From Phycisphaerales bacterium (GTDB lineage Bacteria > Planctomycetota > Phycisphaerae > Phycisphaerales > UBA1924), in the NCBI GenBank assembly GCA_020853975.1, contig JADYXW010000090.1, forward strand, positions 1 through 64,000: 64,000 nucleotides of DNA. Direction: 5' to 3'. The notes beneath the pieces were generated by a model. The model was not told where the DNA came from, searched no databases, and worked only from the letters and a program-made list of their open reading frames with translations. The position numbers and the translations under genes are program-made. Shown piece by piece: positions 6,432 through 42,951 of this stretch (positions are counted from its first letter, which is position 1; each line of letters begins with the position of its first letter).

Positions 6432-8191
6432 TGGGCGCCCTCCCCGTGGGTCTTGGCCGGGTTCGTGGGCTGCGGCGCGTGCCTGGCCGGCGCCGGGGTC
6501 GCCCCCTGCGACCGCAGAGGCGTCCGCACCACAGCCACCGTCTGATCAACCGATCCCTGAACCGCCTGCATCAGTGGCTTCGGATACACGCCGAGAACAA
6601 CGCACAGCACCGCCAGCGGCACCAGCGTCGCGATCTCTCGCCCCGAAAGGTCCGTGGGCAGGCCGTGAGCGTGCTCGTCTTCAGTCCCATGCCCGCCCGA
6701 GCCGTGCGACGCCCCGTGCCCGGAATGCTCGGCGTGCCCCGCCGAGTGCCCGTGCGGCGTCTTGAGCGGCCCCCAGACGACCTTCCCCACCATGTAAAGA
6801 AGGTACATCGCCGCGATGATCATGCCCGTGCCGGCGATCATCGCGAACCACGGCCCGAGGGCGCCGGGGGTCGCCGCCGCGACCGGCTCGATGTCGCTCC
6901 CCCACGCCCCCGAGCCCCACGAACTCGACGCCTGGAACGCGCCCAGCAGGCACAGGAACTCGCTTACAAAGCCGTTGAGCCCGGGCAGACCGACCGACGC
7001 CATGGTGAAGAACACCATGAAGGTGGCCCAGACCGGCATCTTCGCGGCCAGCCCGCCGAGCTGGTTCATGTCCCGCGTGTGGTACCGCTCGTAGATCATG
7101 CCGATGAGCAGGAACAGCGCGCCCGTCGACAGGCCGTGGTTGACCATGTAGAGGATCGAGCCGGTGATTCCGGTGTTGTTGAGCGCGAACATGCCGAGCA
7201 TGCAGAAGCCCAGGTGCGCGACCGAGGAGTACGCCACCAGCTTCTTCACGTCGGTCTGTACCCAGCAGATCAGCCCGCCGTAGATGATGCCCACCACGCA
7301 CAGCATCGACAGGTGGGGCGCATAGGTCGCCACCGCCTCTGGCACCATCGGGAGCGCAAACCTGTAGATCGCGTACGTGCCCAGCTTGAGCAGGACGCCG
7401 GCGAGGATCACCGACCCCGCCGTCGGGGCTTCCGTATGGGCGAGCGGCAGCCATGTGTGGACGGGGAACAGGGGCACCTTGACCGCGAAGCCCGCCATCA
7501 GGGCCAGCAGCACCCAGGCCTGCTCGCCGGCCGACATGAGCTGCCCCGCGGTGATCAGCGTCGAGACGTCGAACGTCCAGGTCCCCAGCAGCTCGTGCTG
7601 CGACAGGATGACCGCCGGCACCGAGGCCCGGTCCAGGGTCGCGTTGAACCACGTCACATAGACCAGCCCCGCGAGGGCCACGACCGAGCCCGTGAACGTG
7701 AACAGGAAGAACTTGATGGCGGCCCTGCGCCGGTTGGTCGAGCCCCACAGGCTGATCAGGATGAACATGGGGATCAGGGTGAACTCGAAGCAGATGTAGA
7801 AGAGGATCACGTCCCGGGCCGCGAACACGCCCGCCATCGCCGCCTGCAGCACCACCAGCCAGGCGTAGTAGGTGCGCACGCGCGTCGTGATCGCGGTCGA
7901 CGACGCCAGGACGCACACCGGCCCCAGGAGCCCGGTGAGCAGGATCAGCACCATCGACACGCCGTCCGCGCCCAGCGAGAGGTTCACCCCGAGCCCCTCG
8001 AACCACGCGAGGGACATCCCGAGCTGGGCCCGCGAGGAGAACGACCAGTCGAACACGGTCGCCGCGTAGCACGCGACGACGAGCTGCGTCAGCGTCCCCA
8101 GGAGCGCGATGGTCTTCGCGCGCGCCTCCGGGGCCAGGGCGATAAGCACCGCCGACACGAGGGGAATCAGGATCGCCGCCATCAGCAGCAC
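6428..8191 (-). CDS. nuoM: NADH-quinone oxidoreductase subunit M
   Basis: NuoM signatures: FICFEFTLIPMFILISLWG, FPVHTWLPLAHTEAPTAGSVILAGVLLKLGTY, KKLVAYSSVAHLGFCMLG. Contains a His-rich insertion near the C-terminus. Confidence 0.95.
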   Translation of the reverse strand: MLLMAAILIPLVSAVLIALAPEARAKTIALLGTLTQLVVACYAATVFDWSFSSRAQLGMSLAWFEGLGVNLSLGADGVSMVLILLTGLLGPVCVLASSTAITTRVRTYYAWLVVLQAAMAGVFAARDVILFYICFEFTLIPMFILISLWGSTNRRRAAIKFFLFTFTGSVVALAGLVYVTWFNATLDRASVPAVILSQHELLGTWTFDVSTLITAGQLMSAGEQAWVLLALMAGFAVKVPLFPVHTWLPLAHTEAPTAGSVILAGVLLKLGTYAIYRFALPMVPEAVATYAPHLSMLCVVGIIYGGLICWVQTDVKKLVAYSSVAHLGFCMLGMFALNNTGITGSILYMVNHGLSTGALFLLIGMIYERYHTRDMNQLGGLAAKMPVWATFMVFFTMASVGLPGLNGFVSEFLCLLGAFQASSSWGSGAWGSDIEPVAAATPGALGPWFAMIAGTGMIIAAMYLLYMVGKVVWGPLKTPHGHSAGHAEHSGHGASHGSGGHGTEDEHAHGLPTDLSGREIATLVPLAVLCVVLGVYPKPLMQAVQGSVDQTVAVVRTPLRSQGATPAPARHAPQPTNPAKTHGEGAQ

Positions 8192-28768: not shown

Positions 28769-30544
28769 TCAGTTGGTGCGCTGCGTCACGTCGCAGGGGA
28801 TGGGCGGGTTGAAGTCGTACATGACCTTCTGGCCCTTGTTGAAGGACTTGATGCTGCGGCCGAAGCTCACCTGGAAGATGAGGATGAGGCGTTGCTGCGG
28901 GCGGCTGCGGCTGAGGTTGGGCATCTCGCTCATGGCGCGGATGGGACGGGCGGGGTCGAACCGCAGCTTGTACATCGTCTCGTCCTCGTAGATGTAGCCC
29001 ACTGGCTCGTAGGTCTCACCCTGGGTGTCGACAAGCAGGGGCGGGAGGATGGCCTCCGCGGCGTCGAGCGTTCGGCCCAGCAGGCTGACGCGGCTGGTGC
29101 TGTCCACGCGGATCTGGACCATCACCCGGTCGCTGCTGGCGGCGAACTGGGTGATGCGGAGCTTGCGTTCCGTCACGTTCTGCCACTTGCGAGCCTCTTC
29201 GACAGTTGCGGTGAGCTCTCCGGAGACCACGTGCCACTGGCTGCCCTCGCCGAGCTGAAGGGTGCCGTGCTGGCCCTCCTGCAGGTTGTACATCGGGATG
29301 GCGTTGGAGACGCTGACATCGGGGATCTGCACGGGCTGGCCTGGGCGGGCCTGGGTCTGGACCGTGGTGTCGTTGCCGGTGGTGCCGGTGGGGAGCGCGG
29401 CAGGGTTGCCCACGCCCATGGCGGCGAGGCCGCCCGCGTCACGCTCGCGGAAGGTGGCGAAGGTCTTGGAGGCGGGCGTCGTGAGCTCGAGGCGAGCACC
29501 CTTGACGTAGACCGCGACGGGGTTGAAGCCGCTGCGGCAGGGGAACTCGAAGGCCATGGTGGCCTCGGAAGCGGATCCGATGGAGGCGATGAAGGTGCCG
29601 CCGGAGTCGAAGCGGAAGCGGGCGGCGCCGGGCGTGGCGGGGTCGGCCTGAGTGGTGACGGCAAAGGGGAAGGAGATATCCCGCTCGCCGGCGCTGTTCT
29701 CGGAGACCATCATGATCTGCGGGGCGCCGATGGCGACGCGGCCATCCTTTTCTCGGGCGGGCGCCTGGAACGTGATGATGACACCCTCGATGCGCGTGTC
29801 GGGCGGGTACGCGTCGCCCTGGGGGTCCACGACGCTCTGGACGCCGTTGTTCCAGGTGTCCTTGAGGACCTCGGAGAACTGGTGGCCCTCGCCGCCAACG
29901 ACGAAGCGGCCCCGGAGCTCAAAGTCGCCCGGGCGGAAGGTGTTTCTGCCCGCGTTGTCGAAGGGGGAGATGCGCATACCGCTGCCCATTTCATGGATGG
30001 CGGGGTGCCACTTGGCGAGGCTCTCGTCGGAGCGGAGGGCCCGCTCGGAGAGGTGGCCATAGAGGCGTGCGGTCATCTTGTCGAAGGGGACCCAGAGCGC
30101 GGAGTTGCGGACGACGCTGCCCGTGGGGGAGTAGTCGAACGACTGGGGGCCGACGAAATCGACGCGGAGGTATGAAAGGGAGATGACAGCGATGCCGACT
30201 GAGATGGCGCCGGACATAGCGCCGAGGAGTGCGCCGCCCGCGTAGTTGGCGCCGCCGCTGACGATGACGTTGGAACGGAGGACGCGGTCCGCGATGAAAC
30301 GGAAGAGGACGAGGGAGACGGCGAAGGGAACGATGAGGGCGAGCCCCCAGGCGGAGCCGTCGATGAAGCCGACGCTGCTGGTGCCGCCAAGGATCGCGTA
30401 GCCCAGGGGCTCCCAGAGGGCGAAGGCGAAGGCTCCGGCGATGATGGTGCAGAGGAAGTGGATGAGGGCGGAGAAGAAGCCTCTGGTCAGCCAGATGTAG
30501 GCGATGAGGAAGACCAGAAAGATGGACACAGCGGAAAGGATCAT
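28769..30544 (-). CDS. CvpA-like membrane protein with large C-terminal soluble region
   Basis: N-terminus MILSAVSIFLVFLIAYIWLTRGFFSALIHFLCTIIAGAFAFALWEPLGYAIL plus further TM segments (YAGGALLGAMSGAISVGIAVISL) resembles CvpA/colicin V production family topology; about 400-aa soluble extension. Confidence 0.65.
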   Translation of the reverse strand: MILSAVSIFLVFLIAYIWLTRGFFSALIHFLCTIIAGAFAFALWEPLGYAILGGTSSVGFIDGSAWGLALIVPFAVSLVLFRFIADRVLRSNVIVSGGANYAGGALLGAMSGAISVGIAVISLSYLRVDFVGPQSFDYSPTGSVVRNSALWVPFDKMTARLYGHLSERALRSDESLAKWHPAIHEMGSGMRISPFDNAGRNTFRPGDFELRGRFVVGGEGHQFSEVLKDTWNNGVQSVVDPQGDAYPPDTRIEGVIITFQAPAREKDGRVAIGAPQIMMVSENSAGERDISFPFAVTTQADPATPGAARFRFDSGGTFIASIGSASEATMAFEFPCRSGFNPVAVYVKGARLELTTPASKTFATFRERDAGGLAAMGVGNPAALPTGTTGNDTTVQTQARPGQPVQIPDVSVSNAIPMYNLQEGQHGTLQLGEGSQWHVVSGELTATVEEARKWQNVTERKLRITQFAASSDRVMVQIRVDSTSRVSLLGRTLDAAEAILPPLLVDTQGETYEPVGYIYEDETMYKLRFDPARPIRAMSEMPNLSRSRPQQRLILIFQVSFGRSIKSFNKGQKVMYDFNPPIPCDVTQRTN

Positions 30545-30562
30545 TGGGCCGGTCTCCTGGAG

Positions 30563-32491
30563 TTAGGCCTTCTGCTCGGTGGTGGCGGGCTTGGCGGGGG
30601 CGGGCGTGGAGGCTGGCTTGGCCTGCTCCTGCTCGGTGGTGACGCGGACGAGTTCCTCGATGCTGGTGGTGCCATCGAGGGCCTTGCGGAGCGCGGCCTG
30701 CTGGATGTCGGGGAGCTGCTTCTTTCGGAACTCCTGGCGGAGGCCCTGGAGGTTCCCGGCCTTGATGAGCGCTCGCTCGGCGTCGCCGATGGGGTAGACC
30801 TCGAAGCAGCCCTCGAGGCCGACGAAGCCGATGCCGCCGCAGGCCGGGCAGGTCTCGGGCTTGTTCTTGACGAGGACCTGGCCACCCTTCTTGAAGAGCT
30901 GCTTGATCTTGTCCGGCGGGAGGCCGAACTTCTTAAGCATGTCGGGGGAGGGCTGGTAGGCGACGCGGCAGTTGGTGCAGAGCTTGCGGATGAGCCTCTG
31001 GGCGACGGCGCCGCGAAGGTTCTTGACCGCGGCCTCCGGATCGCCCGCGAGCTTGTACCACTGGGCGATGGCCTGGAGCGCACCCTCCGCCTTCAGGCAG
31101 GCGTAGACGCGGGTGCGTTCCGCGTCGGCACGGCAGATTTCCTTGGCCGTGTTCGTGTCGGGGACCTCCGCCACTCCCAGCACGTTGGGGTCACGGCGGA
31201 GCATCGAGCGGACGGTGGTGGAGAACTCCGCGCCGTCGGCGAAGGGATCGAAGATGTTCTGGCGGACGCCCTCGATGCTGTCCTGCACATCGATCTCGAC
31301 GGTCTGGACGTTGCTGGTGTAGGCGTCGTGCATCTTGACGACGGTGTAGAGCGTGGTGGTACGGCCCTGGTCCGGCGGGGCGGCGAGGAGGACCAGGCCC
31401 TTGCCGTCCTCCACGAGGGCCCGCATCTCCTTGGCCTGGGGCTCGAGGAGGCCGAGGCCGTCGAACTTGCGGCGAACAGCGCCTTCGGGGTCAAAGAGCA
31501 TGGTGGCGCGGAGGCCGCCCTGGGCGCCGATCGCGGAGACGCGGATCTTGGATCGCTGGGTGCCGCGCTCGATGATGACGTCGGCGGACTGCTTCTTGCG
31601 ACGCTCGGCGAGGTCGAGCTTGGCGGCGCCGCGCCAGAAGTCGATGACCTTGGCGGCTTCGGGGCCGGCCATGACGCCCGGGGGCGGCGGGGGCGGCACG
31701 CCATCCTTCGGTGGGACGGGGTCGTGCAGGACCGCGGGGACGCGCACGCCGTCCACGAGGAACGTGACGCGGTAGGTGTTGCCCGCGGGGTCGAAATCGA
31801 TCTGGCTTGCCCGAGAAGCCTGGGCGCGGAGGACGACGTTTTCCGCGGCGACGCGGAGGTCGTATTCGGGGGTGCCGGCGTCGGGAACCGCGACGAGGGA
31901 CTTGTCCGGCCCCCGGACCGCGAGCTCGGACTTGCCCGCAACCGCCTTGGCCTTGGGGTCCTTGGCCTTGGCCTGGTAGAAGAGCGTTGAGAACTTGAGG
32001 CGGAAGTTGTCGGGGACGCGGTCGTCCTTGTTCACGATGTTCATGAACACCGCGACGTCGGCGAAGAGGATGACGATCATGACACCGAAGCCGGCCCAGA
32101 ACGCGGCCTCGGACTTCATGGGCATGGAGACGGCGGCGAGGATCGCGACCACGCCGACCACCAGGTGAACGGTGCCCCACTGCTCCCGGGGAAGGTGGAA
32201 GCGGGCGCAGTGCTTGTCGAAGTTCTTGGAGATCAGCCAGGCCCAGGGGAGGAAGGGGATGAGCAGCAGCACGGGCTTCCACCACGCCACGAGGACGTGG
32301 GCGGTCGCGGCCAGGGTGAGATCGATCGGCAAGTGGCTTTGCACTGGGGGCACCTGGAGAACATTGGCGGGCAGCCCGCCTGGGTTACCGACAACCACGC
32401 CGCCCGGATGCACCGCAGCCGGGCTGGTCGGCGGGTTTTCGACCTGAGGGGTACAGGATATCAGAGTCGGGCGTTCCCGTCCCGTCACCAT
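30563..32491 (-). CDS. Membrane-anchored GspE/PilB-family ATPase homologue with degraded Walker A and His box
   Basis: Two or three N-terminal TM segments. C-terminal region aligns by eye to T2SS/T4P ATPases: AAPPDQGRTTTLYTVV (Walker A position), RRDPNVLGVAEVPDTNTAKEI (Walker B/DPDV), LRGAVAQRLIRKLCTNC...CPACGGIGFVGLEGCFEV (Zn tetrad). Start uncertain; ATG 32491 chosen. Confidence 0.8.
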   Translation of the reverse strand: MVTGRERPTLISCTPQVENPPTSPAAVHPGGVVVGNPGGLPANVLQVPPVQSHLPIDLTLAATAHVLVAWWKPVLLLIPFLPWAWLISKNFDKHCARFHLPREQWGTVHLVVGVVAILAAVSMPMKSEAAFWAGFGVMIVILFADVAVFMNIVNKDDRVPDNFRLKFSTLFYQAKAKDPKAKAVAGKSELAVRGPDKSLVAVPDAGTPEYDLRVAAENVVLRAQASRASQIDFDPAGNTYRVTFLVDGVRVPAVLHDPVPPKDGVPPPPPPGVMAGPEAAKVIDFWRGAAKLDLAERRKKQSADVIIERGTQRSKIRVSAIGAQGGLRATMLFDPEGAVRRKFDGLGLLEPQAKEMRALVEDGKGLVLLAAPPDQGRTTTLYTVVKMHDAYTSNVQTVEIDVQDSIEGVRQNIFDPFADGAEFSTTVRSMLRRDPNVLGVAEVPDTNTAKEICRADAERTRVYACLKAEGALQAIAQWYKLAGDPEAAVKNLRGAVAQRLIRKLCTNCRVAYQPSPDMLKKFGLPPDKIKQLFKKGGQVLVKNKPETCPACGGIGFVGLEGCFEVYPIGDAERALIKAGNLQGLRQEFRKKQLPDIQQAALRKALDGTTSIEELVRVTTEQEQAKPASTPAPAKPATTEQKA

Positions 32492-32558
32492 ACGCGCTGG
32501 GGGAGGGGGCGTTTCAGGTGCGGGGGCTGTCCGGGCCCGGACCTGCAAAAACACCGGA

Positions 32559-32580
32559 CCCCTCCCAGCGTTGGGAGGGG
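32559..32580 (-). terminator. Putative terminator between the exported-protein gene and the GspE-like gene
   Basis: Perfect 9-bp stem CCCCTCCCA-GCGT-TGGGAGGGG. On the minus strand it is followed, after a short spacer, by GTTTTTGC. Confidence 0.65.
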
Positions 32581-32610
32581 CCCAGCGTCATGGGGCTGTG
32601 AATGAGCGCG

Positions 32611-33300
32611 TCAATCGGTCGGAGGGACCGAGACCGTGATGTCCGCGGGCTCGCCCACCGCTGCCAATAGCACGGGGCTCTGCATGAGTTCAGAGGCGGA
32701 GGACAGGCGGCCCTGCGGGAGGCGCGAGAGGTCGAGGGACATCATGAGGGAGCGGGTGCCGTCCGGGGAGAGGAGGGCCCACTCGATGACGACGTGGTCG
32801 TTGTCGAGGACTCGAACGAGGTGCTGCATGGGCACGGGCTTGACGCCCGCGGGGGAGAGGGTGCCTCGGAACGAAAGGGACTTTGAGGCGGGGTCGGAAT
32901 CGAGGGAGGACTCCGCGGGGGCGTTAAGGGCGGTGGTGAAGCTGCGCATCTCAACGGCGCCGCTCCTGGGGTTGGAGCGGAGCCGGATCAGGCCCTCGAA
33001 GGGCTCGCCCCGCTCGAAGCCATCGAACGCGGCGAGGATGGAGCCGTCGGGCTGGGACCGGATGGACATGGAGGCGATGGAGCTTGACGCGCCGTCGGCG
33101 TGCTTGAGCGTGACGGCGCCGTCCCACTCGCCCTGGAGGCCGGAGAGCGCGGCGGGGAGCTTGGGCTGGCTCGGGGCTGGGGCCGCGGGCTGGGAGTTCT
33201 GGTCGGACGGCTGGGCCGGGGGCTCGCAGGCGCTGGCGTGACCGGCGGCGAGCACGAGAAGCGAAGCGGCGCACGCCGCGGCTTTGGAGAATATGTGCAT
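32611..33300 (-). CDS. Exported hypothetical protein (DUF1579-like)
   Basis: Signal peptide MHIFSKAAACAASLLVLAAGHASACEPP; LSGLQGEWDGAVTLKHADG... single beta-type domain. Confidence 0.72.
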   Translation of the reverse strand: MHIFSKAAACAASLLVLAAGHASACEPPAQPSDQNSQPAAPAPSQPKLPAALSGLQGEWDGAVTLKHADGASSSIASMSIRSQPDGSILAAFDGFERGEPFEGLIRLRSNPRSGAVEMRSFTTALNAPAESSLDSDPASKSLSFRGTLSPAGVKPVPMQHLVRVLDNDHVVIEWALLSPDGTRSLMMSLDLSRLPQGRLSSASELMQSPVLLAAVGEPADITVSVPPTD

Positions 33301-33502
33301 GCTGATTCCTCCCTCACCCTGGGACCCTCTCGGGCCCGGCCCTCCACGCACCGAGTAGAGATCGGATGCCCGGGACACTCGCCTGAGGGCGGGCGAGGCA
33401 AAGGGCATGGGGGCGGGACGGCGCAACCCCGGAGGCAGGCGTTGGCGGCAGACTCGGAGGAGTCATAATGCCGGCCCGCGCGGCTCGGCACTACTCTCGT
33501 GC

Positions 33503-33802
33503 ATGGCACTGACAGTCGGCGCATTTCAGAAGATCATCAGGGACCGGTATTACGCGACGGATTCCGCCCGCGGGACGCCCGGGACCTTCATGTGGCTCAT
33601 GGAAGAGGTGGGAGAGCTCGCGACGGCGCTGCAGAACAACGCGCCCGGAAAGAAGCCCACTCTCGACGAGCGTGCAAACCTGGATGAGGAGTTCGCCGAC
33701 GTGATCGCCTGGCTCACGACGCTGGCGAACATCAACGGCGTGGACCTGGAGGTCGCGCTGCGGAAGTACACCGAGGGCGGCGTCGAGGGAGTTAAGGACT
33801 GA
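33503..33802 (+). CDS. MazG-like nucleotide pyrophosphohydrolase
   Basis: 99 aa: FMWLMEEVGELATALQNN...LDEEFADVIAWLTTLANINGVDLEVALRKYTEGG; EExxE...ExxD MazG-type metal-binding pattern. Confidence 0.85.
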   Translation: MALTVGAFQKIIRDRYYATDSARGTPGTFMWLMEEVGELATALQNNAPGKKPTLDERANLDEEFADVIAWLTTLANINGVDLEVALRKYTEGGVEGVKD

Positions 33803-33814
33803 GGGGTTGGCGCG

Positions 33815-34045
33815 TCAGCGCGAGGGGCCGGGGATGTGGCCGCCGGCACGGGGATGGGTGCCGATGGGGATGGTGCCGTTGGGCGAGTGAGGCACCGGCG
33901 GGTCGGGGTCGGCGTAGGCCGTGCGGGGGACGCCCGTGACCATGCGAAGCTTGAACCAGATCAGCAGCGCGAAGCCGCCACAGGCCACGGCGAACAGGCT
34001 GAGCTCTCGGCGGTGGCGCACCGGGGTCTTGTGTGCGGCGTTCAT
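33815..34045 (-). CDS. Small single-TM protein at the end of the pseudopilin cluster
   Basis: MNAAHKTPVRHRRELSLFAVACGGFALLIWFKLRMVTG...; located 26 bp downstream of the GspH-like gene. Confidence 0.5.
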   Translation of the reverse strand: MNAAHKTPVRHRRELSLFAVACGGFALLIWFKLRMVTGVPRTAYADPDPPVPHSPNGTIPIGTHPRAGGHIPGPSR

Positions 34046-34071
34046 GGTGGCTCCGGGGGGGCGTCGCGGGA

Positions 34072-34623
34072 TCAGCCGGCCGGGGGGGTCTCGGGCGGGG
34101 GCGCGGTGAGCCGCTCGACGCGGACGCGGCCCGTGTATCCCTCGACGTGGATGCGGAAGGTCTGGTCGGACCCCATGATGTCGATGTAGCCGTCGCTGGC
34201 GGGAACGCCGCTGCCCGGGTCGGTGACGGGCCCGCCAAGTTCGTCGAAGACGAGGCGGTTGTTCGGGAAGTTGATGGCGACGATGGAGGTGTGGCCGAAG
34301 TCGTCGCCGTTGAGGACGCGGCGTTCGAGGGTGTTGAGTTCCTCGTCGATGGTGCTGCCGTTGACCTCGACGATGTTGTAGTAGGCCTCGCCCTCGTCGT
34401 TGTGAAAGACGATGGCGCGGCCCCGCTGAAGGGCGATGGCGTCGGACTGGGCGACGGTGAGGTCGGAGACGACGGATCGGACGGCGCCCTGGACGCGGAG
34501 GACGGCGGTGGACTGCATGTTCGGAATGACCATGGCCCCGGCGATGCCGAGGACGGTCACGACGATGAGCATCTCGATCAGGGTGTAGCCTGAGGCTGAG
34601 CGGGAGAGATTGGAACGACGCAT
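34072..34623 (-). CDS. GspH-like pseudopilin
   Basis: Class III prepilin signal MRRSNLSRSASG|YTLIEMLIVVTVLGIAGAMVIPNMQ, followed by a GspH/FimT-type beta-rich C-terminal domain. Confidence 0.85.
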   Translation of the reverse strand: MRRSNLSRSASGYTLIEMLIVVTVLGIAGAMVIPNMQSTAVLRVQGAVRSVVSDLTVAQSDAIALQRGRAIVFHNDEGEAYYNIVEVNGSTIDEELNTLERRVLNGDDFGHTSIVAINFPNNRLVFDELGGPVTDPGSGVPASDGYIDIMGSDQTFRIHVEGYTGRVRVERLTAPPPETPPAG

Positions 34624-34664
34624 CAGACTCCCTCCGGACCACGCCGGCGCCGAGGCCCGCCCGG

Positions 34665-34994
34665 TCACTTGGCGGGCTTGTCGGCGGCCTGCTTCATGGC
34701 GGGCATGTCGGTGACCTTGACGTTGATGCCGCGTGTGAGCGCGGACTCGATGCGCTCCATGCGAGCAGAGAGGCCGCGGAGCTCCTGGATCATCTGCTTT
34801 CGCTGTTCGGCGGCGCTGATGCGTCCGCTGGGGTCGTCGGTGACGAGCTCGATGTCATCGGCGGGCTGGGCGTTGGCCCTGCCCAGCAGGTCGGAGGGGG
34901 TGGCAAGCCAGTTGAGGACCAGCACCCCGGCGATGACGGTGAGCACGGCGTTGGCATACAGGCGGGGGCTGGGGCGGCGGATGGTCGTGGGCAT
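34665..34994 (-). CDS. Single-TM protein with predicted coiled-coil periplasmic region
   Basis: MPTTIRRPSPRLYANAVLTVIAGVLVLNWLA...AAEQRKQMIQELRGLSARMERIESALTRGINVKVTDMP; lies between pseudopilin genes. Confidence 0.6.
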   Translation of the reverse strand: MPTTIRRPSPRLYANAVLTVIAGVLVLNWLATPSDLLGRANAQPADDIELVTDDPSGRISAAEQRKQMIQELRGLSARMERIESALTRGINVKVTDMPAMKQAADKPAK

Positions 34995-35087
34995 GGGTTG
35001 CTCCTTCACGGGATTCCATCGGCCTTCGGAGCCCCCCGGGTCAGGGCCGGCGAGCATTTGGCCCGGAAACAAGCGGTGTGGTGCGTG

Positions 35088-35528
35088 TCAGGGGCGGAGC
35101 AGGGGCTGGTCCTGGGAGTCAAAGCCGGCGGCCCAGACGTCGCCCGTGTTTGGGTCGTAGATCCAGCCCCGGGTGGCGTCGAAGGAGGAGTCGGCGGTGT
35201 TGCCGAGGACGATGACATCCGCGTTGGCGCCCCCGACCCACTGGTTATCCGGAGCGCCGCGGAGGTACTGGCCGCTGTTGCCAAGGAGCCCGCCCCATGT
35301 GCCGGAGCCGGCGGTGACGTCGGGGTAGACCCCGCCGTTCTTGAAGTAGTAGACGGCGATGGCCCTGCGGAGCTTGGCGAGCTGGTCGAAGGTTGCGGAG
35401 CTGGTGGCCTGCTGGGTGGCGCTGGCGAACTGGGGGACGACGATGGCGGCGAGGATCCCAAGGATGACCACGACGATGAGGATCTCGACGAGGGTGAAGG
35501 CCTGACGGAGGCCTCGCTGGGTACGCAT
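35088..35528 (-). CDS. GspG-type major pseudopilin (paralogue 2)
   Basis: MRTQRGLRQAFTLVEILIVVVILGILAAIVVPQFASATQQA... Confidence 0.87.
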   Translation of the reverse strand: MRTQRGLRQAFTLVEILIVVVILGILAAIVVPQFASATQQATSSATFDQLAKLRRAIAVYYFKNGGVYPDVTAGSGTWGGLLGNSGQYLRGAPDNQWVGGANADVIVLGNTADSSFDATRGWIYDPNTGDVWAAGFDSQDQPLLRP

Positions 35529-35627
35529 CACTCCACCTCCTGAGGGGCCACCGGTCCGCCCTGAAAAGCCGAACGGCGTCCGTTGAGACGCCGTCCGGTC
35601 TTCGTCATGATTCACACCGATGCCCGA

Positions 35628-36053
35628 TCAGGGGTTGGCGGTGTCGAGGATCTGGTTGGCCTCGTCGTAGTAGCAGGCGGAGAACTCGCCGGTGGTGGCG
35701 TCGTAGACCCAGCCAGCGCCGGCGGTGCCCGCGACTTCACCGTTGGTGAAGGTGCCGGCGACGACGGAGGACTGGCTGTTGAAGGGGTTCTTGGGGGCGG
35801 CCTTGAGATACCCGCCGTTGATCATGTCGGTCCAGCCGGTGGTCACGAGGTCCGGATAGTTGTTGGTCCGGGCCTTGTAGAGCTCGATCTGGTTCTGGAT
35901 GCTCTTGATCTGCGAGCGGAGGTTGCCCGTCTGGGCGTCCTGCGTCGCGTTGGTGAACTGGGGCACGACGATGGCGGCCAGGATGCCCAGGATCACAACG
36001 ACGATCAGGATTTCGACCAGGGTGAAGGCCTTGTTCGAACGACGATTGCGCAT
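35628..36053 (-). CDS. GspG-type major pseudopilin (paralogue 1)
   Basis: MRNRRSNKAFTLVEILIVVVILGILAAIVVPQFTNATQDAQTGNLRSQIKSIQNQIELYKARTNNYPDL. Confidence 0.9.
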   Translation of the reverse strand: MRNRRSNKAFTLVEILIVVVILGILAAIVVPQFTNATQDAQTGNLRSQIKSIQNQIELYKARTNNYPDLVTTGWTDMINGGYLKAAPKNPFNSQSSVVAGTFTNGEVAGTAGAGWVYDATTGEFSACYYDEANQILDTANP

Positions 36054-39635: not shown

Positions 39636-39992
39636 TCAGCCCGTCCCGTCGAACAGGTGAGTCCAGGCAAAGACCTGCAGGAGCCCGATGCCCACCGGCA
39701 TGGCGGAGATGGCGATCGCGGCGACGGCGATCCGGCGGCCCAGCACGGGCCGGGAGCGCCCGACGAGCTCGCAGACCGCGACGACAAGGATGACGGTCGC
39801 GAACTTCAGCCCGATGAGGCCCCAGTGCCCGAAGAGCTCGAGGATGTTCCGGGCAACCTGGTTGACCTCGGAGCCCCCGAGCCGGTACACGATGACGTAG
39901 GTCACGAGAATGTCCAGGCACGAGGCGAGGATGTACCAGAGGTAGTGCTCGGGGTAGAGGACCGGGGAGCGCGGGACAAAGGCCTGGCTCAT
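39636..39992 (-). CDS. Small multi-TM protein (DUF5658-like)
   Basis: LWYILASCLDILVTYVIVYRLGGSEVNQVARNILELFGHWGLIGLKFATVILVVAVCE resembles the DUF5658 pattern. Confidence 0.7.
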   Translation of the reverse strand: MSQAFVPRSPVLYPEHYLWYILASCLDILVTYVIVYRLGGSEVNQVARNILELFGHWGLIGLKFATVILVVAVCELVGRSRPVLGRRIAVAAIAISAMPVGIGLLQVFAWTHLFDGTG

Positions 39993-41620
39993 GGCTCTGC
40001 ATCCGACGAAGCGAGGACCGACTCGAAGAGGCCCGGGGGCGGCTCGGCCCCGGTCCAGAAGCGGAACTGAGCACGCGCCTGGCGGATGAACATGCCCAGG
40101 CCGCCGATCGCGGGCCAGCCTCTGGCCGCGGCTTGTGATACCAGCGGCGTGGCGGCGGGGTTGTAGATGGTGTCGAGAATCGCGGGAGGGATGCCCTCGA
40201 ACGCCGCGGGGAGCGTGCAGGGGAGCGACCCTGGCGCCGGGCCACCCGCCATGCCGACGGGGGTGGCGTTGATGACCGCGGCGGGCTTCTCACCCCAGGG
40301 CAACGAGGGCAGCACGCGGATGTCCCCACCCAGCTCCGAGGCGAGCGCCCGCGCGTGCGCCTCCGTGCGGTTCACGATCACGACGCGCGCACCGAGGTTC
40401 TGGGCGGCCCACACGGCGGCGCGGGCGACACCCCCCGCCCCCACCACCACCACGGCGCGTCCGTGCAGCGGGCCGGCGAGCTCGGAGAGTTCGTCCCGCA
40501 GCGCGGGAGCGTCTGTGTTGCAGACACGGATGGCCCCGGGCTCGCCGGACGGGGCGCGATCAACCCTGAGTGTGTTGGCGGCCCCGAGCGACACGGACGC
40601 TTCGTCCAGGGCCCAGCCCTGCTCGCGGGCGAGCCTCGCCAGCGACTCCTTGTGCGGGAGCGTGATGCTCGCGCCGCGGAAGTTCAGGCCCGCGTGCCCG
40701 ACCAGTTCGAGCACCGTGGCCTTGAAACTGAGATACGAAGCCTCAGCATCGGCGCCTGCGGCGATGGGAAGCGGGAGGTAGACCGCGTCGAGGCGGGCGT
40801 GGTCGAAGCCCGCGTTGTGGAGGAGCGGAGAACGGGAGTGGCCCACGGGCCAGCCGATGACGCCGTAGATGGCGGTCGCCGGGTTGATGCTTCGGAAGCG
40901 GTAGAGGCCGAGCAGGTCGCGGATGGTGGGCTGACCCGGCGCCGTGGCGGCGGAGGGGCGGAGCGAGGCGAAGGTGAGAAAGCCCCCGAACTTCGGCGCG
41001 AGCACTCGGGTCAACAGGCCGAACTCACCCATGCCCAGCGAGATGGTCGGGCGGCGGAGCAGGGCGGGCAGGTCGAGGAGTTCGAGCGCATCGCGCAGCG
41101 AGCGAGCGCGGTATGCGACCTTGACAACGGCCGCGTCGGTCTCTGCCGCGAGGCGGCTCACACGGCGGTGAAGGTCCGCGGGGCGGCCTTGGAAGTCGTG
41201 CACGGAAAGGATGAGTGATGTCTTGAGGTCGCGCTGCTGCTCGGGATGGTCGATGGCCAGGCGGACTTTCTGTCGCAGGTTGGCGGAGCGGTGCCAGGAG
41301 GCGAGTTCGAGGTCGAGGTACCGGGGCGGCGACTCTCCCGCACCGAAGGCGTTGCCCAGGCGCTCGTAGATGGCCACGCGGTCGGCGTCCGGGCCGTCGT
41401 AGCCCCCACCCTCCGCCGCGGCGCGGCAGGTGACGATGCACGGGAGCGGGGACTCGGCGGGGAGGCGCAGGACCTGGGCCTCGGTCAGCGGGTCGTACCC
41501 CGAGAAGAACTCGTCGATGCGGAACTCGACGAGGTTGGCCCCGGCGTCTCTCGCGGCGGAAGCGTCGGCGAGCGCGGCGTCGATGTCGTGGACGAGGATC
41601 GGAACGCACACAAGGGTCAT
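39989..41620 (-). CDS. aroDE: Bifunctional 3-dehydroquinate dehydratase (type I) / shikimate dehydrogenase
   Basis: N-terminal VEFRIDEFFSGYDPL...IVTCR...VKVAYRARSLRDALELLDL (AroD type I), then IYGVIGWPVGHSRSPLLHNAGFDHARLDAVYLPLPI...GASITLPHKES...VVVGAGGVARAAVWAAQNLGARVVIVNRT (AroE). Confidence 0.93.
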   Translation of the reverse strand: MTLVCVPILVHDIDAALADASAARDAGANLVEFRIDEFFSGYDPLTEAQVLRLPAESPLPCIVTCRAAAEGGGYDGPDADRVAIYERLGNAFGAGESPPRYLDLELASWHRSANLRQKVRLAIDHPEQQRDLKTSLILSVHDFQGRPADLHRRVSRLAAETDAAVVKVAYRARSLRDALELLDLPALLRRPTISLGMGEFGLLTRVLAPKFGGFLTFASLRPSAATAPGQPTIRDLLGLYRFRSINPATAIYGVIGWPVGHSRSPLLHNAGFDHARLDAVYLPLPIAAGADAEASYLSFKATVLELVGHAGLNFRGASITLPHKESLARLAREQGWALDEASVSLGAANTLRVDRAPSGEPGAIRVCNTDAPALRDELSELAGPLHGRAVVVVGAGGVARAAVWAAQNLGARVVIVNRTEAHARALASELGGDIRVLPSLPWGEKPAAVINATPVGMAGGPAPGSLPCTLPAAFEGIPPAILDTIYNPAATPLVSQAAARGWPAIGGLGMFIRQARAQFRFWTGAEPPPGLFESVLASSDAEP

Positions 41621-41661
41621 CGCGTGCACTGTAACGCGTCCGCACGGGACGCCGTGCGGGG

Positions 41662-42951
41662 CTATTTCGCGGCGGCCGATCCGGCGGTGTGGCCGCTCGC
41701 CCATGCCCATTGGAAGTTGAAGCCCCCGATGCGCCCGTCGACATCGAGGATCTCGCCGCAGAGGTAGAGCCCGGGCGTGGCGCGGCTTTCCATGGAGTCG
41801 AGGCGGACCTGCGAGAGAGGGATTCCGCCCGCGGTGACTTCGGCGTAGGTGAAGCCCCGATCGCCGGTGATCGGGAGCGGGTGGCGGGAAATCGCGTCCA
41901 CGAGCGCGCGGCGCTGGTCGCGGGAGAGGGATGTAACGGGCGCCACAGGATCGATGCCCGCATGGCCCGCGATGAGGCGTGCGAAGCGTTCGGGCAGCCC
42001 CGGCGCGGCGAGGCCCGGGACGGGAGTGCCCCGGGGCAACTCGTGCGTGAGCCAGCGCAGCACCGAAAGGCCCCGCGTGGAGAGGAGCGCGGCGTCGAGC
42101 CGGTCCGGGGTGAGGCCGGGCACGAGGTTCATGGTGATGGTGACGCCCGGGCCGGAGAGCCGCGCGCCGATGACATGGCGGCTGATGTCCATGGGGCCCG
42201 GGCCGGAGAGCCCGAAGTGGGTGAGGAGCACCGCGTTGGTGAACTCTGCGAGAACCTTGCCCGAGGGGGCGCGGAGGGAGATCGTGGCGGGGAATGTGAT
42301 GCCCGCGAGCTGGGTGAGAGGGTGGCCCGCGGCGAGCGTGAGGGGCACGAGCGCGGGGAACACGCGGGGCGTGATGGTGTGACCGAGCGCGCGGGCGATG
42401 TCGTAGCCCGCGCCATCGGAGCCCGTGCGCGGCAAAGCCCTGCCACCGGTGGCGAGGATGACGCGCGGGGCGCGGAGGCTCCCCGGCTCGCCTTCGCGGC
42501 AGACCTCGAAGCCCCCGGCGATGGGGGAAATAGCTCCCACACGCCACGGGTGGCGGAGTTCGACGCGGGCGTCACGGGCGGCCCGCAGGAGGGCGTCGAG
42601 AACTGTGTGGGCGTCGTCGGAGACGGGGAAGAGTTTGCCCGTGTCCTCCTGCTTGAGGTCGACGCCCAGTCCGGCGAAGAACGCGCGCGTGCGTTCCACG
42701 CCGAAGCGGCCCAGCACGTTGCGGATGGCGTGGGGCGAGGAGCCGGCGTACTGGCGTTCGTCGACGGCGTGGTGGGTGACATTGCAGCGGCCGCCGCCGG
42801 CAACAAGGATCTTGGCGCCGAGCTTCTTCGCGCCGTCGAGCGCGATGACACACCGGCCCGCGCGGCCCGCGGTGATGGCGGCCATGAGCCCGGCGGCGCC
42901 CGCCCCCACCACCAGGATGTCGGCGTCTGGGTTGGGAGTGCCGGGAGTCAC
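41662..42951 (-). CDS. HI0933-like / BaiN-RdsA family NAD(P)/FAD-dependent oxidoreductase
   Basis: ADILVVGAGAAGLMAAITAGRAGRCVIALDGAKKLGAKILVAGGGRCNVTHHAV...FTYAEVTAGGIPLSQVRLDSMESRATPGLYLCGEILDVDGRIGGFNFQWAWASGHTAG. GTG start inferred. Confidence 0.92.
   Translation of the reverse strand: MTPGTPNPDADILVVGAGAAGLMAAITAGRAGRCVIALDGAKKLGAKILVAGGGRCNVTHHAVDERQYAGSSPHAIRNVLGRFGVERTRAFFAGLGVDLKQEDTGKLFPVSDDAHTVLDALLRAARDARVELRHPWRVGAISPIAGGFEVCREGEPGSLRAPRVILATGGRALPRTGSDGAGYDIARALGHTITPRVFPALVPLTLAAGHPLTQLAGITFPATISLRAPSGKVLAEFTNAVLLTHFGLSGPGPMDISRHVIGARLSGPGVTITMNLVPGLTPDRLDAALLSTRGLSVLRWLTHELPRGTPVPGLAAPGLPERFARLIAGHAGIDPVAPVTSLSRDQRRALVDAISRHPLPITGDRGFTYAEVTAGGIPLSQVRLDSMESRATPGLYLCGEILDVDGRIGGFNFQWAWASGHTAGSAAAK

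Follow-up and report, generated by a model that had tools for sequence, protein, structure and literature searches.

The GspE/PilB motor proteins (TIGR02533, TIGR02538, PF00437) are soluble and carry an N1 domain. In Vibrio and Pseudomonas, two proteins of the T2SSE superfamily, PilT and PilU, are encoded together, and the active protein may still need its partner when the latter has no ATPase activity; in Vibrio cholerae, a PilT with a dead Walker A still supported PilU-driven retraction and still bound PilU and PilC (PMC6821130, PMC6762196). A second extension-type member of the family beside the canonical one is also known in the case of TfpB (NF053534; PMC8213720), which is described as a second extension motor, that is, an active one. 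Multiple PilB homologues are discussed in a review on PilB (PMC11656802), in which we found no mention of a naturally dead one. In planctomycetes, an essential secretion-related cluster, Plim_0401-0410, has been reported in Planctopirus limnophila (PMC10632474), and a link between it and the unit presented here is conceivable. In the open-access literature on planctomycete pili, pseudo-ATPases, degenerate PilB/GspE proteins and CvpA together with pilT, we found no description of the gene unit presented here, and the open-access literature yielded no naturally dead or membrane-anchored member of the GspE/PilB/PilT motor family.

The window analyzed in this work is a stretch of 64,000 nucleotides from a Phycisphaerales bacterium (class Phycisphaerae). 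It encodes a protein, which we call pE (Table 1), that resembles GspE/PilB in its N2-like domain, RecA-like core, zinc-binding Cys tetrad and C-terminal fold, but has no Walker A Lys, no His box and only a degenerate Walker B. Predicted transmembrane (TM) helices stand in the place of the N1 domain, and no GspF or secretin gene is linked to it. It falls far under the GspE/PilB equivalog cut-offs (172 vs 630 bits), and, although it is likewise an additional extension-type member beside canonical ones, also under that of TfpB (137 vs 850 bits). In PilT-PilU, each protein is a PilT-family ATPase and a dead version occurs mainly as a laboratory mutant, whereas pE would be a natural, class-fixed, membrane-anchored dead protein of the PilB/GspE type.

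Table 1. Features of the pE locus, with positions in the window
Feature	Positions	Strand	Evidence
pE, putative membrane-anchored pseudo-ATPase of the GspE/PilB family, 642 aa	30563..32491	-	T2SSE match, AlphaFold/Foldseek, orthologues, dN/dS
Three predicted TM helices of pE (residues 71-155), replacing the GspE/PilB N1 domain	32027..32281	-	AlphaFold secondary structure; hydropathy in relatives
Degenerate Walker A, APPDQGRTT, Lys absent (Arg377)	31355..31381	-	Lys in 0/134 distinct Phycisphaerae sequences
ASP box remnant, Glu399 kept	31289..31303	-	Glu 100% in every group
Degenerate Walker B, GVAEVPD vs VGEIRD	31157..31177	-	Catalytic Glu in only 64% of Phycisphaerae
Lost HIS box, ERTRVYACLK vs TGHLVFSTLH	31091..31120	-	His uncommon at both positions (134 Phycisphaerae sequences)
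Intact zinc-binding Cys tetrad, CTNC...CPAC	30839..30979	-	99-100% conserved
CvpA-like partner: N-terminal CvpA-like TM domain and beta-rich C-terminal region (about 28793-29932)	28769..30544	-	Downstream of pE; Colicin_V; AlphaFold

Fold and membrane anchor of pE

The initial annotation had described the reading frame of pE as GspE-like with an N-terminal multi-TM module, and both statements were confirmed. Pfam T2SSE matches residues 217-616 with 134 bits, and the sequences of solved GspE/PilB structures align to the core of pE. This alignment runs only from N2 to the end, and no N1 domain, the part that binds GspL/PilM, was found. The AlphaFold model, computed with 50 orthologues as input (pLDDT 87.5), shows long N-terminal helices at residues 71-97, 102-122 and 128-155, followed by the GspE/PilB motor core; residues 1-66 are modelled with low confidence. 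When this model was compared by Foldseek, the top matches were PilF, PilB and EpsE, with E-values of about 1e-31 to 1e-28 (lowest 2e-31) and TM-scores to the target of up to 0.86. Given the odd number of predicted helices, the protein would have its N-terminus outside and its C-terminus inside. A Pfam domain search revealed no known sensor or effector domain in pE. It should be noted that a further in-frame GTG is present upstream of the reading frame, at 32554.

Catalytic motifs

The reference residues are those of Geobacter PilB (PMC5424180), to which we related pE by motif spacing. The Walker A, His-box and Cys-tetrad strings given in the initial annotation proved accurate, and the catalytic loss that they indicated is conserved: the Walker A Lys is missing in all sampled members of the class and the His box is lost. 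No GxxxxGK[ST] sequence is present in pE. The residue in place of this Lys is Arg in 71% of the 134 distinct Phycisphaerae sequences, Leu in 11%, Gly in 5% and another in the rest; Arg predominates in the order of the window, and elsewhere in the class Leu, Gly, Val, Gln, Ser, Ile or Ala is found. Lys appears in 13 of 199 aligned sequences, all 13 from outside Phycisphaerae. A sequencing error at this site is excluded, since the orthologue with 95% identity and all the other orthologues share the loss.

The Glu of Walker B is retained in the window (AEVPD), as had been pointed out, but the GE[IMV]RD motif is broken and the residue is not constant in the family (Glu 64%, Asp 20%). Instead of the two His of the HIS box, pE has Thr460 and Lys467, and the equivalent of Geobacter PilB Thr411 is lost in the Phycisphaerae orthologues. 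The phosphate-binding Arg finger is present in 7% of the Phycisphaerae sequences, and only 58% of them retain the partner Arg finger of the ASP-box Glu, so that the ring geometry may have changed. On the other hand, the last Gly of Walker A (100%), its Thr/Ser (98%) and the Arg of LRxDP (93%) are kept in the Phycisphaerae set, as are the final Asp of Walker B in the pE family, the ASP-box Glu (Glu399), whose role is to coordinate Mg (PMC5424180), and the zinc-binding Cys tetrad. Judged from these residues, pE probably lacks ATPase activity.

The zinc tetrad is also lost in one genus, g23 (loci L085 and L188-L191), where it reads AKSS ... CPES, and part of it is lost in the TM-anchored GspE-like copies of L290 and L302 (family f107). 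Since L302 has intact catalytic motifs, loss of zinc and loss of catalysis are separable.

Orthologues and selection

A profile search found pE in 198 of 198 genomes of the class, and nearly all of the best matches listed cover both the TM region and the core. Sequence identity of the orthologues is 43-95% within the family, where nearly all genomes have one, and 31-42% across the order. Between pE and an orthologue of the same genus, dN is 0.0196 and dS 0.447 (dN/dS ~0.04). The protein is under strong purifying selection and is not decaying.

A conserved gene unit

The gene of pE belongs to a conserved unit formed by an intact PilT-family ATPase, pE and a CvpA-like protein. In the order-level loci, the CvpA-like gene is immediately downstream of pE in 40 of 40 cases, and an intact PilT-family gene lies at the locus, usually just upstream, in 35; of the five others, two are cut by contig ends and three have no PilT-like gene in range, with no contig end as the cause. 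The same genes were observed in the class-level loci (CvpA-like 19/20, PilT-like 14/20) and in other planctomycete classes (PilT-like 20/20, CvpA-like 18/20). These counts are based on tblastn, blastp and HMM matches because a simple gene caller missed pE in 12 of the 40 order-level loci. Recurrent opposite-strand or frame-shifted clusters near pE turned out to be shadows of conserved genes and were discarded.

All four ATPase motifs are kept by the PilT-like partner in the order-level loci, and it evolves more slowly than pE (mean identity 56% vs 33% in 20 genome pairs). In the genome of the window this gene is located on another contig, C45 (L088:8854-10083), and not adjacent to pE, which indicates that the linkage was broken in this lineage. 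Its product is 77% identical to that of locus L074 and is above the NCBIfam PilT/PilU cut-off (TIGR01420; 372.7 vs 319.1 bits). As for the idea that the motor would be supplied from a second locus, an intact motor that is a conserved partner does exist elsewhere in the genome, but it belongs to the PilT family and is not a second gspE/pilB.

The N-terminal TM domain of the CvpA-like protein resembles CvpA, but its Colicin_V match (PF02674) is below the gathering score (21.5 vs 29.3 bits), and the protein adds ~380 beta-rich residues without a significant match in the PDB. Colicin_V matches 31 of 34 orthologues at E<=0.01. The AlphaFold model of the protein has a pLDDT of 86, and Foldseek against the PDB gave no significant fold (only E>0.001, with TM-scores of ~0.1). 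Its length is ~190-310 aa outside Phycisphaerae (L246-L258, L287-L306) and mostly ~400-600 aa or more inside, the extra length being the beta-rich C-terminal region. This protein may be the membrane partner of the unit.

The one clear additional neighbor shared by the unit is hisF, recognized by eye, which immediately precedes the PilT-like gene in 35 of 93 loci (L055-L306); we read this adjacency as an old synteny across planctomycete classes, in a housekeeping context. In L252-L254, L295-L298 and L300 (Lys-less, families f90 and f99), another conserved membrane protein, of ~250-300 aa, is encoded after the CvpA-like gene or after the site where that gene would lie.

Pseudopilins and other secretion genes

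The neighbors of pE are as originally described: the CvpA-like gene, two pseudopilins, of which one has a T2SSG match and the other N_methyl only, and a GspH-like gene. Their interpretation as one cluster with pE did not hold. Pilin-like ORFs, recognized by motif, are present in only 9 of 93 related loci, at scattered positions, and the pseudopilins of the window do not map near pE orthologues in the order-level loci, with the exception of one same-genus locus, where a GspH-like gene lies ~8 kb away on the other strand. We therefore consider the arrangement a chance or genus-level neighborhood. Moreover, a MazG-like gene on the opposite strand and a DUF1579-like gene separate pE from the pseudopilins; the former, at 33407-33802 (+), would encode a nucleotide pyrophosphohydrolase. 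At 39989-42547 (-) there is an ORF that by eye resembles a fused 3-dehydroquinate dehydratase/shikimate dehydrogenase (AroDE).

The search with family profiles gave no GspF, secretin or prepilin-peptidase match on the contig of pE, in agreement with what had been noted in the window, and PF00482 (GspF/PilC) was found neither on this contig nor on that of the PilT-like gene. The genome as a whole has 13 T2SSE matches above the cut-off, with eight or nine canonical GspE/PilB proteins, whose presence it had been proposed to check, and three PilT-like ones, together with seven GspF proteins (14 domain matches), five secretins and one sub-threshold prepilin peptidase; of all these, only pE itself is encoded on its contig.

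Possible role of pE

We propose, with a probability of about one half, that pE is a membrane-tethered pseudo-ATPase that serves as a structural adaptor or regulator of a PilT-like motor. The retention of the fold, the zinc module and the ASP-box Glu, together with the loss of the nucleotide-specific residues, argues for a structural role, and the repeated presence beside pE of an intact protein from its own superfamily suggests a partner motor; with the precedent of PilT/PilU in Vibrio, these features favor an ATPase-dead ring or collar. Its three N-terminal helices would tether the protein to the inner membrane, and its ATPase-like core would face the cytoplasm. Most likely it would assemble as a (hexameric) ring or docking collar without ATP turnover, and it would recruit, anchor or gate the co-conserved intact PilT-family ATPase, with the CvpA-like membrane protein. 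Against this proposal we counted the unlinked PilT-like gene of the window genome, its absence from 3 of 40 order-level loci, the fact that neither pE nor the PilT-like gene is accompanied by GspF/PilC, and the partial conservation of the Arg finger described above.

A distinctly less probable possibility is that pE, anchored in the membrane, serves in signalling or regulation, and that its core is a protein-binding or ligand-sensing module that reports the state of the pilus, of secretion or of the envelope, the PilT-like protein being independent. Such a role would agree with the drift of catalytic residues while the fold and the zinc domain are held, and with a TM anchor and a CvpA-like partner that has a large beta-rich C-terminal region; besides, the PilB review (PMC11656802) covers a proposal that PilB acts as a regulator in Myxococcus when it is free of nucleotide. 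However, pE has no known sensor or effector domain, and signalling alone does not account for a linkage to an intact PilT-like ATPase that extends through the phylum. It seems unlikely that pE keeps an unusual nucleotide binding or a non-canonical activity with Arg in place of the Walker A Lys. Of Walker A, the last Gly and the Thr survive, as do the ASP-box Glu and the Asp that closes Walker B, and Arg predominates as described above, but the other class members have different residues in its place, and the phosphate-binding Arg finger, the His box and often the Walker B Glu are also gone.

Still more doubtful is the suggestion of the initial annotation that pE would scaffold a non-canonical pseudopilus of its own, made from the neighboring GspG/GspH-like genes: the same-strand proximity in the window and the single same-genus locus would speak for it, but it is disfavored because the pseudopilins do not travel with pE and because other genes intervene. 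Finally, motif decay on its own might be taken as the sign of a decaying pseudogene or an assembly error; both readings are refuted by a reading frame that is open in nearly all genomes, the low dN/dS, the presence of pE in every genome of the class and the identical loss in independent assemblies.

Somewhat more tentatively than for the adaptor proposal, we suggest that planctomycetes may carry an undescribed three-part membrane machine, made of a PilT-family motor, a membrane-anchored GspE-type ring and a CvpA-like protein and independent of known pilus or type II secretion operons, in which the ring would have repeatedly lost its ATPase activity to become an obligatory structural pseudoenzyme. 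The unit appears to be a phylum-wide and unstudied planctomycete gene set, in a phylum whose envelope biology is poorly understood.

Ancestry and loss of catalysis

Outside the class, the trio includes a TM-anchored GspE-like protein. In families f49, f107, f108, f109, f56 and f70, the Walker A, ASP box, Walker B and His box are intact in most copies; f90, f99 and f111 have lost the Lys (with ARPEGGLST, APPGHGLTT and similar sequences), and in L287, L290, L301 and L306 the Lys is kept and other catalytic motifs are lost. Since units of other classes carry a TM-anchored protein with intact motifs, catalysis was lost secondarily in pE. Originally, the protein was probably a membrane-anchored ATPase that was active and belonged to the same operon; Phycisphaerae, and also some families of a second planctomycete class, would then have lost catalysis, leaving the PilT-like partner as the only motor. 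An apparently dead motor-family protein is fixed across a class, and elsewhere in the phylum the locus carries relatives that are catalytically intact or partly decayed. This natural series, from intact through decayed to dead, lets one ask what a motor ring does beyond ATP hydrolysis, and whether two different motor-family rings cooperate, which is an open question for PilT/PilU.

A maximum-likelihood tree was built from the core region, with the motif columns left out. In this tree, pE and its TM-anchored relatives, except L265, form one clade apart from canonical GspE/PilB (97/94), in which Phycisphaerae (100/100) and the Lys-less group (100/100) are recovered. On this tree two losses of the Walker A Lys have to be assumed, but the AU test does not reject a topology in which all Lys-less proteins group together (p=0.34), or one in which the second class is a single clade (p=0.15). 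In the taxonomy used, f49, f90, f99, f107 and others form a single class, separate from that of the window, and if the gene follows that taxonomy the Lys losses were independent. Long stems (0.66-0.68) lead to the Lys-less groups, as expected after relaxed constraint, and long-branch attraction among the decayed sequences is a concern.

Locus L261 (genome G462, family f49) contains at 6713-8014 a second, soluble GspE-like protein of ~434 aa, with no TM helix and a Lys-less Walker A (GPPNSGLTTTT), which, from its sequence, is possibly another pseudo-ATPase of the family. Its gene adjoins a dihydrodipicolinate-synthase-like gene, and matches of 438-442 aa to this protein were found in several f49 genomes.
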